64,000 nt of DNA, taken from positions 186,156 to 250,155 of the forward strand of contig CALAJQ010000006.1 of NCBI GenBank assembly GCA_937922785.1, given 5' to 3'. The position numbers and the translations under genes are program-made. The notes below the pieces were generated by a model, which was given only the letters and a program-made list of their open reading frames with translations, was not told where the DNA came from and ran no database searches. Of this stretch, positions 51,857 to 62,991 are shown in pieces; the stretch's first letter is position 1; every line of letters starts with the position of its first letter. This stretch comes from an uncultured Acidimicrobiales bacterium (GTDB taxonomy: Bacteria; Actinomycetota; Acidimicrobiia; Acidimicrobiales; SZUA-35).

Positions 51857-51890
51857 AGAGACATTTCTATTCGTGGCTCATGATGTCTCT
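51857..51890 (+). other. Small inverted repeat
   Basis: AGAGACAT (51857-51864) pairs with ATGTCTCT (51883-51890), loop of 18. It sits upstream of the larger structured element and may belong to the same transcript. The 358-base gap 51703-52060 holds this, the family 2 repeat and the element at 51929; no gene is seen. Confidence 0.45.
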
Positions 51891-51928
51891 TGTTAGCAAC
51901 AAACGCAGCCGGGGGATCCTGCTGTGGT

Positions 51929-52031
51929 GAACAAAGACCCGAGCGGTCAAATGGCTCTTCCCTACTTTCGTTACAACAATGGGGGAATCTCCCGAGCCAG
52001 ACGTTGGAGGGCGCCGCTCGGGTCTTTGTTC
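51929..52031 (+). ncRNA. Highly structured element before the desaturase gene (unassigned)
   Basis: A perfect 18-bp outer stem: GAACAAAGACCCGAGCGG (51929-51946) with CCGCTCGGGTCTTTGTTC (52014-52031). Inside are a second stem UGGCUC/GAGCCA and a third UUCCC/GGGAA around a loop. The element ends 29 bases before the desaturase ATG. It matches no RNA family I know (not tRNA, tmRNA or SRP RNA). Options are a cis-acting mRNA leader, a small RNA, or a MITE-like element, though no clear target duplication is seen. Confidence 0.5.
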
Positions 52032-52060
52032 TCAGTTGTGTTCTTGTAGCAAGATGGCTT

Positions 52061-53473
52061 ATGGCCGCCGACTACACCCTCGATGGACTCGACACTCGTC
52101 GAGCTGTAGAAAACGGTTTGGCCGACGCAGAGTGGTACCGGCCAAAGATAGATCCCGAGAAGCTCAGGGACCTCTCAGTTCGCTCCAACACTCATGCTGC
52201 AGTGACAACTGTTGCATGGTTCGGGCTGATCATCGCTAGCGGTGTTGCTGCGTTTTGGCTGATGCGGGGCGGCAGCTGGTGGGCGTTGTTGGCCTTCTTT
52301 GTATACGGAACCCTTTACGGCGGAGCGGCCGATTCTCGCTGGCACGAATCCGGTCACGGCACTGCTTTCAAATCTGATTGGGCCAACACGATCACCTACT
52401 ACCCCGCTTCGTTCATGTTGTTTCGTGAGCCAACACTTTGGCGGTGGTCTCACGTGCGCCATCACAGCGACACTGTTGTCGTTGGTCGTGACGCCGAAAT
52501 CGTGTTCCCGCGGCCTCCCAAGCTGGGTAAGTGGTTAGCGAACTATCTGAACATATTCGGCGCTCCCACGATGCTGGCCAGAATGGTGAGGCATGCGCGG
52601 GGACACATTTCAACTGCAGATCGCAGCTACATCCCCGAGCAAGAACAGCCGAAAGTGATAACCGAAGCGAGAGTCTTCCTCGGAATTCTTGTAGCAGTGG
52701 CTGTGTGGTGTGTTGGGACGATGTCGATCGTGCCGGCGCTGTTCATCGGCCTTCCCACTTTCTACGGAGCTTGGTTGGTGCTCCTGTTTGGAACAACCCA
52801 ACATGCTGGACTGCAAGAGAACGTCCTGGATCACCGCCTCAACACTCGCACGGTTTACATGAACCCATTGTCACGGTTCCTTTATCTGAACATGAACTAC
52901 CACGTCGAACACCACATGTTCCCGACCGTGCCTTACCACGCGCTTCCCAAGCTGCACGATGAGGTGAAGGACCAGTTGGTTGAGCCCTCTAGCTCGATAA
53001 TCGCTGCCTATCGCGAGATCGTCCCGGCCCTGATCAAACAACGCAAGGATCCAACTTGGGAACTGCCGCGAAATCTGCCTGCCGGAGTTCAGGCGGAGCG
53101 AGCGTTTGTTGGCGAGACGGCTCGTTCAGCTGAAGGTCGGGTCATCACAGATCGAGATGGTCGAGAGTGGGTTGAAGTGCAGTTGCAAGCTCAGCTGCCG
53201 ATTGACGCAGTACTGAGGGTGGACTGTGGTGAAGCCACCTACGCCATCTACCGGACGGCTAAAGGTATGTTCGCCACCGACGGCGTATGCACCCACAGCA
53301 GGCGCGTCCATCTGGCTGACGGTGTAATCGTGGGCAACGAAATTGAATGCCCCAAGCACAACGGCAGGTTCGAAATCGCCACTGGATTGCCGGTAAGAGC
53401 GCCAGTGTGTGTGGCCTTGAAGACCTATGAGATCATCCAAAGCCAAAGTGGCAGCAATCTGAGATTCGGCTAG
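52061..53473 (+). CDS. Fatty-acid-desaturase-type di-iron oxygenase fused to Rieske domain
   Basis: 470 residues. The membrane di-iron domain has helices at about 48-90 and His boxes HESGH, HVRHH and NYHVEHH. A C-terminal Rieske-type 2Fe-2S domain (about 375-465) has ligands CTHSRR and CPKHNGRFE. The pairing recalls MocD/MocE, where the desaturase-like oxygenase and its Rieske ferredoxin are separate proteins. Here the electron donor is fused. It could desaturate or hydroxylate a lipid, carotenoid or N-methyl substrate. ATG 52061 excludes the structured leader. Confidence 0.85.
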   Translation: MAADYTLDGLDTRRAVENGLADAEWYRPKIDPEKLRDLSVRSNTHAAVTTVAWFGLIIASGVAAFWLMRGGSWWALLAFFVYGTLYGGAADSRWHESGHGTAFKSDWANTITYYPASFMLFREPTLWRWSHVRHHSDTVVVGRDAEIVFPRPPKLGKWLANYLNIFGAPTMLARMVRHARGHISTADRSYIPEQEQPKVITEARVFLGILVAVAVWCVGTMSIVPALFIGLPTFYGAWLVLLFGTTQHAGLQENVLDHRLNTRTVYMNPLSRFLYLNMNYHVEHHMFPTVPYHALPKLHDEVKDQLVEPSSSIIAAYREIVPALIKQRKDPTWELPRNLPAGVQAERAFVGETARSAEGRVITDRDGREWVEVQLQAQLPIDAVLRVDCGEATYAIYRTAKGMFATDGVCTHSRRVHLADGVIVGNEIECPKHNGRFEIATGLPVRAPVCVALKTYEIIQSQSGSNLRFG

Positions 53474-56548: not shown

Positions 56549-57634
56549 ATGTGTGTGCGGATCGTGACGAGTGGTTTGAGCCATGTCTTTCTAGCGGCCT
56601 TTCTAGCGGTTTTTCTAGCCGCGGCATGTGCCCCTACCGCAGGCAGCTCGCCAAACGCGTTCCACCCCGATGGTTGGGAGGGAGTAGAGGCTCCCGAAGA
56701 TGTCTATGACCCGCGCAAGGCCGGAGAAGAGTTGCCTGAAGGCTTCAGACAAGTGGTTGCTAGAGACGGAATTCGTCCGATCTACAAACCCAAGTTCGTA
56801 GCGGCGTCGGAGTCTCCCTGGTCTGACGACGAGCTTGTGATCGGAGTTGACTTAGCGGGCGAGGCAAGGGCGTATCCGGTCGGATTCTTGAATCGCAAGG
56901 AGATTGTTGTCGATCTTCACAACGGCATCCCAACTTTTGTCACGTGGTGACCGCTTTGTGGAACGGCGATGGTCCATCGTCGAGAAGTAGACGGGAATCC
57001 AATTGCGCTTGGCAACCATGGTGCGTTGTGGGGGAACGCAATGACCTGGTGGGATCACGAGACTGGAAGTATCTGGAGCCAACCGCTGGGCGAAGCCATC
57101 GCTGGCCCGTTGAAAGGTACAAGGCTTGAGTTGTTGCCCTCCACGCTTACAACTTGGTCAGACTGGCGTGAGCTGCATCCCGAAACAGTTGCCTTGGACG
57201 CCGACAGCACGACCGGAGATTTCGAGCTAGATGTTATGTCGATAGTCGTAGAGCTCGAAGATGAGTCGATCGCTTTTCCTGTGCCCTCACTCAGAACCGA
57301 GGGCCCAGCCAACAGCGACGTCGCTGGAGTCCCAGTGGGGGTAGTCGTTAGCCCGGGGTCTGACAACTGGTCGGTCTTCTCACGACAAGTGGGGGACAAG
57401 GTGGTCATGTTTGATCTAGTCGGAGAAGTCTTGGTCGAGCGGGGAGGTCCCGGTCGTTGGGATCCTGAACTAGGACTTCCGCTAGACGAGTCAGGCGAGA
57501 TACTAAACAAGCTTCCAGGCTTCACCTCATTCCAGGAGGACTACATCACGTTCTTTCCTAGAGGGTTTTTCTGGGTCGAGGATGACCAACTGATATCGGT
57601 TGACTCCCGCGGCCCGTATGAACTGGGCCAATAG
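56549..57634 (+). CDS. DUF3179 lipoprotein, probable selenoprotein
   Basis: 361 codons including one in-frame TGA. The signal VFLAAFLAVFLAAACAP has lipobox Cys at about 28. The DUF3179 domain follows: PIYKPKFVAA, GEARAYPVGFLNRKEIVVD, then GIPTFVTW-U-PLCGTAMVHRR, where family members have TYCPLCGTA. It continues WGNAMTWWDHETGSIWSQ. The TGA (56948-56950, codon 134) replaces only the first Cys; Cys 137 remains. The frame runs on without another stop to TAG at 57632-57634, and the family match is continuous across it. A SECIS-like hairpin follows. I infer Sec. The function of DUF3179 is unknown. Confidence 0.85.
56948..56982 (+). promoter_or_regulatory. Candidate bacterial SECIS hairpin after UGA
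   Basis: Thirteen bases after the UGA, CGGCGAUG (56964-56971) pairs with CAUCGUCG (56975-56982), 8 bp with one G-U, closing a GUC triloop. The loop begins 21 bases after the UGA and its first base is G, both as expected for bacterial SelB-binding elements. Confidence 0.75.
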
Positions 57635-57697
57635 TGCGCAATAGTGCGCTCGTCGATTCAAGTCATGGTTAATGTGAACCATGGAGCAAAGGACAAC

Positions 57698-59467
57698 ATG
57701 AGCAACGCTGATAGTCAGGACCAGGCCCGCTATGACCTGGTGATTAGTGGTGGAACTGCTGGCGGGCTTTCGGTGGCGATTTCGTCGAAGCGTTCCGGGC
57801 TAGGGAGCATCCGAGTGCTCGAGCCAACTTCGGGCGTCGCCTTCCCAGAACTGGTTGGTGAGAACCAGCTCGATGTTGGTCACGGCGAGACTTTGTCCTC
57901 GATTGAGGTGGACGGCAATGACCTCATTGTTCGCTCAAACCTTCGCAGTTATCGGACTAGAGGTTGTCTGGTGGCCGAGCGTGAGCGGGAGTCGGCATGG
58001 GTCCCGCCAATCCCTTTTCCCAAAAGTGACCGTGTTCTCATTGACGAACTGCCCGAGCACCTAACCGACACCGACGTGTTGGTTGTTGGGTACACAGATC
58101 ACTCCGTGGAGCTGTTGGCGGCTGGCGTGGCGGCCGGTGGAAGAATGGTATTGGCAGCAGGTGGCATGGATCCGGCGATGTTGTCACCTGCCGGTGAACA
58201 CATGTTGCGCCGTCTCGAGCGAGACCGGCGCGCCACTGTCTTGTACCGAGCAGTGCCCGATCAAATCGGCCTGGTCGATGAGTTCCCAATTGCCTATTTT
58301 GATGACCGCCGAACACCCAACCTTGAGTTTGACTATGTCGTTTTCGCGTCTCATCGTGAGCGTCCCGCCCAAGCTCGCGATTGTGTCAGCACCGAAGCGA
58401 TTGCCACTGGCAAGGTTTGGTTTCTAGGTGAACCCGACGCAGACGCCACAGTGCCAACCGCCCCAGGCAACGAGATTGGCTATCGGGTAGCAGAAGCCTG
58501 TTTCCCTGACCTACCGGTCACACCACCCCGATCCTCCCTTGAACAGCGGGCTCGACATGAAGGTGCGATAGACGAACTTCGGGCCGAGTATTACAACGCC
58601 ACGATCACCGCATTCGAGCCAACGCACTCCGACCTTTGGATCCTTCGCGTCAAGCCAGACGTTGGCGACATTTCTCATGCTCCAGGTCAGTACGCGTCGC
58701 TTGGGTTGGGCTATTGGGAGGAACGCATCGACGACAAGGTTGACGACGGCCTGGACGGCAAGTGGGGCAAGCTTGTTCGCCGGTCCTATTCCATCTCGCA
58801 CCCGATCTTTGATGAGCACGGCTATTTGGCGAATCAAGACGCCAGCGATGAGCTTGAGTTCTACATAGTTCTGGTTCATCCGACAGAAGAGCACGTTCCG
58901 GCTTTGACCCCCCGGCTCGCGCTAAAGCGTCCGGGTGACCGGATCTATCTTGGCCCGAAGGTGGCAGGCCGATACACGTTGAATGCGGTCACCGATCCGA
59001 CGGCAACCTTGCTGTTCCTGTCAACCGGTACGGGCGAGGCACCTCACAACGCCATGGTCACCGAACTGCTGCGCAAGGGTCACTCGGGCCCGATCGTCTC
59101 GGCTGTGACTGTGCGACAATGGGCCGACCTTGGCTACCGGGAGAAGAACGAACGCTTGGCCAAGCGGTACCCGAACTACCACTATCTGCCAACACCCACC
59201 CGCGAGACCGACGTTCCGAAGCGGTATCTACAGGATTTGATTCGTGATGGTGATTTGGACAACTTGTTGGCCGACTCGTTCTCTCCAGATAGGTGCCACG
59301 CCTTTCTTTGTGGCAACCCTCAGATGATTGGGCTGCCCGAGACTGGTGACGACGGCGAGATGGAATTCCCTGAACACGAAGGCGTGGTCGGTTTGTTAGC
59401 AAAACGCGGCTTCACTCTCGACAAGCGAGGCGAGCCCGGAAACATCCACTATGAGGAATACTGGTAA
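57698..59467 (+). CDS. Ferredoxin-NADP reductase fused to degenerate flavoprotein domain
   Basis: 589 residues. The N-terminal ~290 residues form a pyridine-nucleotide-disulfide-reductase-like fold (YDLVISGGTAGGLSVAISSKRSG, VLVVGYTDHSVELLAAGVAAGGRMVL) without a CxxC. The C-terminal half is an FPR-type ferredoxin-NADP reductase: GQYASLGLG, RRSYSISHP (FAD), LSTGTGEAPHNAM (NADP) and CHAFLCGNPQMIG. It probably passes electrons between NADPH and ferredoxin, e.g. from KorAB encoded 1.3 kb away. ATG 57698 has AAAGGA just upstream. Confidence 0.82.
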   Translation: MSNADSQDQARYDLVISGGTAGGLSVAISSKRSGLGSIRVLEPTSGVAFPELVGENQLDVGHGETLSSIEVDGNDLIVRSNLRSYRTRGCLVAERERESAWVPPIPFPKSDRVLIDELPEHLTDTDVLVVGYTDHSVELLAAGVAAGGRMVLAAGGMDPAMLSPAGEHMLRRLERDRRATVLYRAVPDQIGLVDEFPIAYFDDRRTPNLEFDYVVFASHRERPAQARDCVSTEAIATGKVWFLGEPDADATVPTAPGNEIGYRVAEACFPDLPVTPPRSSLEQRARHEGAIDELRAEYYNATITAFEPTHSDLWILRVKPDVGDISHAPGQYASLGLGYWEERIDDKVDDGLDGKWGKLVRRSYSISHPIFDEHGYLANQDASDELEFYIVLVHPTEEHVPALTPRLALKRPGDRIYLGPKVAGRYTLNAVTDPTATLLFLSTGTGEAPHNAMVTELLRKGHSGPIVSAVTVRQWADLGYREKNERLAKRYPNYHYLPTPTRETDVPKRYLQDLIRDGDLDNLLADSFSPDRCHAFLCGNPQMIGLPETGDDGEMEFPEHEGVVGLLAKRGFTLDKRGEPGNIHYEEYW

Positions 59468-62064: not shown

Positions 62065-62991
62065 GTGGATCGACGCTCGTTTGTTCTTGCCGCAACCAGC
62101 CTGGCCCTGGTCGGCTGCACCGCTGACTCAGCGGACAACGTCACCAGCCTTGTACCGATTGGGGCTGATGAAGGCACCCTAGACATTGTCGTTATGTTCA
62201 GCCCTTCGGTAGTAAGCGCTGGCATACCTCAACGGATGCCGTTTGGCTTAGTTCGAGACGGAGTCTTTGTGCTGGGTCCAGGTGGTGAAGAGGTTGCAGT
62301 TGAGATGTACAACGACGACACGGGGACGTTGGTTTTTGAGGGATCGGCAAGCGGACGAGTGGTTGCTCACTCCCACCCCGACAACGTTGACCCCGATCAT
62401 TCCCACGCCGACGTCGTCCGCTATTTTGCACCAACGCTGACGATTCCTGATCCTGGCCGGTTCCGGTTTGTTGTGAAGTCCGGCGAGCAGGTCGCAGCGT
62501 TTGGTGTCAACGTGCTTAACCAATCCGAAGTCGCAGTTCCCGGCATCGGCCAGCCGATGATCTCAATTGAGACGCCAACATTTGATAGCTCGGGTCCGGT
62601 TGACCCGATCTGTACACGGTCACCGGTCTGTGAATTTCACTCACACACCCCGGCCCAGATGCTGGCCGAAGGCAAACCGTTTGTGTTGCTTGTGGCCACG
62701 CCCTCATTCTGTCAAACCCAGTTCTGTGGTCCGGTGCTCGATGTCTTGATTGATGTTCAGCCCGACTTTGAAGACATAACAATGATTCACGCCGAGGTGT
62801 ACGAGAACCCGATTGAGGTCAACGGCAACCTAGGCGACCCGAACTTGCGCCCAGCGCCTGTGCTTGCCGCGATGAGGATGGACTACGAACCGAGCCTGTT
62901 TGTTGTGGGCTCGGACGGAATGGTCATCCACCGGCTCGACAACGTGTACGACGAGACCGAACTTCGAGCTGCACTTGAAGACGTGGTCTGA
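62065..62991 (+). CDS. Tat-type lipoprotein with thioredoxin-like domain
   Basis: 308 residues. DRRSFVLAATSLALVGC is a Tat signal with lipobox. A beta-rich region with His clusters (VVAHSHPDNVDPDHSHAD, about 100-117) comes next. A thioredoxin-like C-terminal domain (about 200-305) has LLVATPSFCQTQFCGPVLD, in which two Cys are four residues apart rather than two, and a likely cis-Pro in YEPSLFVVG. The role could be metal or thiol handling outside the membrane. Co-transcribed with the DUF2231 gene. Confidence 0.75.
   Translation: MDRRSFVLAATSLALVGCTADSADNVTSLVPIGADEGTLDIVVMFSPSVVSAGIPQRMPFGLVRDGVFVLGPGGEEVAVEMYNDDTGTLVFEGSASGRVVAHSHPDNVDPDHSHADVVRYFAPTLTIPDPGRFRFVVKSGEQVAAFGVNVLNQSEVAVPGIGQPMISIETPTFDSSGPVDPICTRSPVCEFHSHTPAQMLAEGKPFVLLVATPSFCQTQFCGPVLDVLIDVQPDFEDITMIHAEVYENPIEVNGNLGDPNLRPAPVLAAMRMDYEPSLFVVGSDGMVIHRLDNVYDETELRAALEDVV

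Follow-up and report, generated by a model that had tools for sequence, protein, structure and literature searches.

A predicted selenocysteine-containing clade of DUF3179 proteins in Acidimicrobiia and Chloroflexota

DUF3179 (pfam11376) is listed, with the motif UxxC/T, as a selenoprotein family credited to Zhang and Gladyshev (2007) in the available portions of two reviews (PMC9312934 and PMC13188914); the initial annotation of the gene described here knew of no such described family. The listed family, from the Olavius algarvensis symbiont and with Sec forms in deltaproteobacteria, has its Pfam family and its UxxC motif in common with our gene. DUF3179 is also mentioned in the accessible part of an Idiomarina genome paper (PMC9230427). 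The main text of PMC9312934 does not contain the terms 'Actinobacteria', 'Acidimicrob-' or 'Chloroflexi', and that of PMC13188914 contains none of 'Actinobacteria', 'Actinomycetota', 'Acidimicrobi-', 'Chloroflexi', 'Chloroflexota' and 'Rieske'; the three mentions of 'DUF' in the available text of deep-Sep (PMC12013277) do not include DUF3179. Literature searches on DUF3179, on bacterial selenoproteins and on Rieske proteins together with selenocysteine, covering sources available in part, returned no paper on the selenocysteine (Sec) clade or its fold. For bacterial selenoproteins in general, the accessible text of PMC1088965 gives as a criterion an in-frame TGA aligned with the Cys of homologues in at least two distinct sequences, and as a SECIS feature a stem-loop just past the UGA whose small apical loop contains a G; our gene and its TGA-bearing relatives have both, although ten of the latter, from Chloroflexota, fold with a larger loop of 8 nt.

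The window that we analysed is a 64,000-nucleotide stretch from an uncultured Acidimicrobiales bacterium. Its Sec-DUF3179 gene has the following features.

56549..57634, + strand: Sec-DUF3179 gene, 361 codons with the TGA read through, ending in a TAG stop
56549..56629, + strand: N-terminal hydrophobic stretch ending in the lipobox-like LAAAC (Cys27), a predicted lipoprotein anchor
56756..57244, + strand: domain 1, Sec-bearing, with a predicted Rieske-like fold (model and structure comparison)
56948..56950, + strand: candidate Sec codon UGA, residue 134, in UPLC
56957..56959, + strand: Cys137, its partner in the UxxC motif (row comparison)
56964..56982, + strand: predicted bacterial SECIS hairpin, with arms 56964-56971 and 56975-56982 and the apical loop GUC at 56972-56974
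57254..57535, + strand: domain 2 (about residues 210-303 of the model), with a predicted Rieske-like fold and lacking a conserved Cys

The start is that of the initial annotation, with other in-frame starts possible further upstream, and the anchor was predicted by a regular expression and hydropathy only. Read through, the protein matched PF11376 with an E value of 1.4e-49 and 169.5 bits, above the Pfam gathering cut-off of 27 bits. Each half also matched on its own, the part before the TGA at 1e-12 over profile positions 1-64 and the part after it at 2e-27 over positions 66-151, which places the TGA at profile position 65, the first Cys of CPLC. The initial annotation was thus borne out in describing a DUF3179 frame interrupted by a single TGA at this Cys, with a second half that retains the family match. 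The 8-bp hairpin with a GUC loop that it had placed 21 bases past the UGA was also there; 21 nt is the distance to the loop, and the stem begins at 13 nt. The PF11376 match spans only positions 1-151 of 292, and the remainder of the protein aligned with its own subfamily; a search of the window protein against NCBIfam gave no match.

We then searched for relatives in a genome collection in which each species is represented once; 121 were found and the best 80 kept. TGA stood at the Sec codon in 76 of these 80 loci, which correspond to 68 assemblies by accession prefix, and the other four encoded Cys (two with TGC, one with TGT, and L132 with TGC in CPQC). The scan used two patterns, one of them with Cys at the Sec position, and so if anything favoured Cys forms. 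The first stop past the Sec codon lay 210-248 codons away in 74 of the TGA loci; the remaining two stayed open up to their contig ends, 155 and 194 codons on. Those 74 genes terminated in TGA (33), TAG (29) or TAA (12), and downstream of the 33 terminal TGAs the hairpin never reached 7 of its 8 pairs. UGA thus appears to serve as both Sec codon and stop within the genes of one family; within the window, 9 of 35 hand-picked long open reading frames (ORFs) also terminate in TGA. Identity to the window protein was 38-65% in the 74 loci that were aligned, six of the 80 being left out: L134, which is cut by its contig, and L124, L140, L143, L148 and L152, in which the tblastn match overran the true stop, which lies 211-216 codons past the Sec codon.

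Within the order, 109 of 397 genomes had a DUF3179 match at 1e-20, and 20 TGA-bearing rows from 15 genomes were listed; an additional TAG in one row (G099:C29) was the end of the gene. The 20 regions fetched from order genomes had TGA at the same codon in 19 cases, one of them cut by a contig end, and TGC in one, the second copy of G308. Among 396 genomes of the phylum, 65 matched DUF3179 and five had a TGA row, the window's included. The order search and the scan overlap, 18 of the 19 TGA rows besides the window's being genes of scan loci, and their counts are not additive. Eight assemblies each carried two Sec-DUF3179 copies (L078/L138, L081/L091, L085/L121, L089/L103, L112/L115, L113/L135, L116/L130 and L124/L128). 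Three records titled Acidobacteria (L084, L090 and L105) have Sec-DUF3179 genes that fall among those of Acidimicrobiia in the tree, by transfer or by mislabelling of a metagenome bin.

The machinery for Sec decoding is encoded in the same genome. Its tRNA-Sec scored 66.7 bits against a cut-off of 47 and was called tRNA-SeC with anticodon tca by ARAGORN; SelA scored 385.1 bits (cut-off 267.9), SelB 296.3 bits (cut-off 242.25) and SelD 368.1 bits (cut-off 125), and selA adjoins selB in one operon (L050:6574-9590). The SelD of this genome (G000:C16:164748-165671, L072) is probably a selenoprotein too, because its gene has one in-frame TGA. A tRNA-Sec above the cut-off was present in 18 of 19 genomes with the TGA gene and in 14 of 16 further genomes of our choice; G023 (88% complete) was the TGA genome without such a match. 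The machinery is therefore necessary but not discriminating, as tRNA-Sec is common with or without a Sec-DUF3179 gene.

The hairpin of the window gene has 8 bp, including one G-U. Across the 76 TGA loci, all 8 stem pairs could form in 60, 7 in 4, 6 in 1, 5 in 1 and 4 in 10, and the loop was GUC in 49, GUU in 13, GUG in 13 and GUA in 1; its GU was invariant in all 77 rows. By contrast, none of the 40 Cys-type loci (38 distinct) had all 8 pairs, and 7 pairs occurred only in a doubled locus. This tblastn-based control took in 40 of 41 loci, with L165/L044 and L172/L040 being the same places twice and L167 lacking the site. Mean fold energy was -11.9 kcal/mol for TGA loci versus -7.6 for Cys-type loci, a difference whose p value of 2e-15 is overstated because the sequences are related. 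Ten Chloroflexota genes, folded as single sequences, adopted another register of 6 bp with an 8-nt loop, which had no covariation over the whole set, and in L143 the lowest-energy fold was not the hairpin. The TGA, the open frame and the hairpin together are more than chance would give, because all three recur in many genomes.

Covariation, which had been suggested as a check on the hairpin, gave a divided answer. In 76 distinct rows, 92.6% of cells could pair, compared with 85.9% in shuffles and 22-53% in slid versions, and two-sided changes occurred in 18 cells, a number that none of 500 shuffles reached. However, these changes were confined to two pairs, as many as in 233 of 500 shuffles, and sliding the hairpin by -3 columns gave 20 two-sided cells versus 18 in the true register; the clearest compensatory case, L119, had two neighbouring pairs changed together. 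Covariation alone cannot decide the matter because the stem varies too little. Synonymous codon usage gave a test independent of covariation: in 59 TGA genes (the window's and loci outside Chloroflexota), the four least synonymously variable of 142 testable codon columns were hairpin codons, with the fifth outside the hairpin. These were Thr ACG (59/59), Ala GCG (57/57), His CAT (58/58) and Arg CGC or CGT (58), and CAT was invariant although CAC is the commoner His codon in these genes.

These results bear on two other accounts of the codon. The TGA could be a nonsense mutation or a sequencing or assembly error, leaving a pseudogene that yields a truncated protein only, and under table 11 the frame is indeed closed. 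Yet the same TGA recurs in 76 of the best 80 of 121 loci, from 68 assemblies, in a protein conserved at 38-65% identity, and the frame then stays open for 210 codons or more wherever the contig is long enough, which makes this account, judged from sequence, very unlikely, with scarcely any probability left to it. Alternatively, UGA could be read as another amino acid, by a suppressor or a reassigned code, given that, judged by comparison, translation runs through the in-frame TGA; but UGA is a normal stop in 33 of 76 of these genes and in 9 of the 35 window ORFs, the hairpin, tRNA-Sec, SelA, SelB and SelD are all present, and all 38 Cys-type homologues compared have Cys at this position, so we consider such a reading highly improbable. 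Assignment of UGA-134 to selenocysteine is supported by the pairing of TGA with Cys, the hairpin with its control in Cys forms, the codon constraint, some covariation and the Sec machinery. The initial annotation, which had proposed Sec at the conserved Cys, fared well here: homologues collected at this codon had TGA in 76 of 80 and Cys in the other four, there was no decayed copy downstream of the TGA among the 76 loci, and SelA, SelB, SelD and tRNA-Sec, whose absence it had set against its own proposal, are all in the genome.

The Sec-DUF3179 protein is probably located outside the membrane: of the 76 TGA genes whose upstream sequence sufficed for the test, 72 had a hydrophobic N-terminal stretch and four had none at the thresholds used. 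A lipobox pattern occurred in 18 of those 72, the window's included. No neighbouring gene was common to the majority of Sec loci; the commonest neighbour cluster occurred in 11 of 77. A CcdA-like gene lay within 1.5 kb in 7 of 77 loci and was not found in the examined flanks of the other 70, the window's included. At L083, of which L084 is a near-copy and which was the one locus given a domain scan, the CcdA-like neighbour matched PF02683 and was followed by a redoxin/thioredoxin-like gene. These neighbours give hints of an electron source for the Sec protein.

Neither the flavoprotein gene downstream in the window (57644-59467) nor the korA-like gene upstream had a homologue among the neighbour ORFs of other loci. 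At 10 of 77 loci there is a + strand ORF that either overlaps the Sec gene or comes shortly after it; one of these (L122:6908-7610) looks by eye like a membrane protein and had no Pfam match. About 3 kb upstream in the window, a Rieske domain (53165-53431) ends an ORF (51890-53473) whose front part resembles, by eye, a fatty acid desaturase. An exported-looking window ORF with several Cys (62065-62991) had no Pfam match, and an ORF a few kilobases from selAB (L050:26-709) resembles it by eye.

Structure prediction offered a view of the domain that carries the motif. The AlphaFold2 models, with Cys modelled for Sec, were confident (mean pLDDT 94.9 and 94.4). Foldseek gave no match at an E value of 0.001 or better against the PDB. 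In structure comparison, the best match of domain 2 was 1vm9 (Z 9.2, rmsd 2.8, 91 aligned) and that of domain 1 modelled alone was 4aiv (Z 7.7, rmsd 3.1, 98 aligned), moderate Z values that unrelated proteins with a similar arrangement may also reach. For the whole model, every one of the best 50 of 220 rows with Z of 2 or more was a Rieske protein, a Rieske oxygenase or a complex that contains one, and for domain 1 the best 50 of 177 rows were all Rieske-type, counting a few titles, such as nitrite reductase small subunits, that we take to be of this type. Thioredoxin-like folds were absent among the matches listed, which does not argue against such a fold. The Rieske ligands CxH...CxxH did not vary among 13 of the 15 Rieske domains found in the same genome, and they were absent from the 75-row DUF3179 alignment. 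Aligned by hhalign with these 13 domains, DUF3179 gave E values of 0.53 and 0.11, which are not significant and come from low-diversity profiles, and a sequence search of solved structures returned nothing at E up to 1. A tandem Rieske-like fold without a cluster is a good hypothesis drawn from the models. Placement of UPLC at the second Rieske motif (CPxHG) was rejected: the aligned ranges put Sec well before the places where, on our assumption about solved Rieske chains, the cluster motifs are expected, and the weak hhalign pairing also disagrees with it. DUF7340 was matched weakly by 39 of 75 members (best E 0.00065), and an uncharacterized Indivirus protein (BFVD A0A1V0SD44, E 4.7e-8) was the sole viral model match at an E value of 0.001 or better.

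To place the Sec forms among their relatives, we compared 118 rows of domain 1 (75 Sec and 43 Cys) in a tree made by a quick method; three Sec genes are doubled in the tree and in the residue comparison (L156 = L109, L158 = L133 and L159 = L119). The Sec forms fell within one starred group of 80 rows, including 5 Cys rows, and the Sec/Cys label changed 5 times on the tree, compared with a mean of 35 when shuffled. One reading is a single gain followed by about four changes from Sec to Cys, but gain and loss cannot be distinguished by the tree on its own. Cys137 was present in all 80 Sec-clade rows and in all 38 Cys-type rows, and the Sec position was Cys in each of the latter. Within the clade, W133 (77 of 80), H143 (78), T166 (80), W167 (76) and H170 (80) were conserved, whereas Cys-type DUF3179 mostly had Y/F133, F/Y143, V166, M167 and R170; E118, D122, P135, R145 and W176 were common to both (37-38 of 38 Cys-type rows).

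A Cys gene in an Acidimicrobiaceae record (L099:6001-7008) had TGC at the Sec position and kept all 8 hairpin pairs with the GU loop, so it is probably a recent Sec-to-Cys change that has left a fossil SECIS. The Cys forms L131, L146 and L157 had the GU loop with 5, 6 and 5 pairs, and L132 had 7 of 8 pairs without it. Besides its Sec form, G308 carries a Cys form (CPVC; L070:3934-5502) with a long C-terminal extension and 5 of 8 hairpin pairs.

Taken as a whole, the explanation that we regard as very likely is a SECIS-directed Sec134 in an exported, membrane-held, two-domain Rieske-like protein with Sec134/Cys137 redox chemistry. SelB and tRNA-Sec would read UGA-134 as Sec, directed by the hairpin with its loop from 21 nt. 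The product would be exported and held at the membrane by a predicted N-terminal lipobox or transmembrane segment, and its two predicted Rieske-like beta domains would carry Sec-Pro-Leu-Cys in the first. Sec134 and Cys137 would form a selenol-thiol pair that cycles via a selenenylsulfide, reducing an oxidized substrate outside the membrane, which may be a peroxide, a disulfide or similar; in some relatives, electrons could come from the nearby-encoded CcdA-like transporter and a TlpA-like thioredoxin. Such a selenol/thiol redox role of a membrane-anchored, extracytoplasmic protein, which the initial annotation had also put forward for a site outside the membrane, is plausible from sequence, and the pair is favoured because Sec-x-x-Cys is invariant, the place is likely extracytoplasmic and there is no other conserved Cys. 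For the reaction itself, peroxide or disulfide reduction outside the membrane is our best guess.

The protein could also be a selenoprotein in which Sec134 and Cys137 bind a metal (copper, iron, mercury or an iron-sulfur centre) in place of thiol-selenol chemistry. The structural matches listed are Rieske iron-sulfur proteins, and two histidines stand out in the Sec clade: His170 occurs in all 80 rows, where 34 of 38 Cys-type proteins have Arg, and His143 in 78 of the 80, where 34 of 38 have Phe or Tyr. However, the Rieske CxH...CxxH is absent and just one Cys pair is conserved; the two histidines occur in only 2 of 38 and 0 of 38 Cys-type DUF3179 proteins, respectively, and His143 may be kept for the sake of the hairpin, to which its CAT codon contributes. 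We therefore consider metal binding unlikely and retain the selenol-thiol pair. A further-reaching proposal, which we put forward tentatively and hold to be rather doubtful, is that the family is a clusterless tandem Rieske-fold selenoprotein with a Sec-x-x-Cys redox centre, in which the Sec form (with His170, Thr166 and Trp167) was ancestral to the clade that Acidimicrobiia share with Chloroflexota, with Cys taking its place on several occasions; bolder still, Sec could ligate a metal centre.

What emerges is a listed selenoprotein family, unstudied in the literature that we searched, that is widespread in Acidimicrobiia and Chloroflexota (76 TGA loci, 68 assemblies). Its genes are likely to be taken for truncated genes or pseudogenes wherever UGA is treated as a stop, and the model offers DUF3179 a fold and a redox site that can both be tested. 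Apparently new are the clade dominated by Sec, a Cys gene whose hairpin is intact and the predicted tandem Rieske-like fold without cluster ligands. Compared with the UxxC/T family in the available parts of the papers that list it, the window's clade is found in Acidimicrobiia, other Actinomycetota and Chloroflexota, and in it Sec is the rule. Cys-type DUF3179 proteins, including two of the same genome (L002 and L003), have a CxxC like the UxxC of the Sec clade, and unlike the Sec genes they have no 8-pair hairpin. Rieske proteins make up all the structural matches listed, yet the Sec-DUF3179 proteins have neither CxH...CxxH nor a significant profile match to them.
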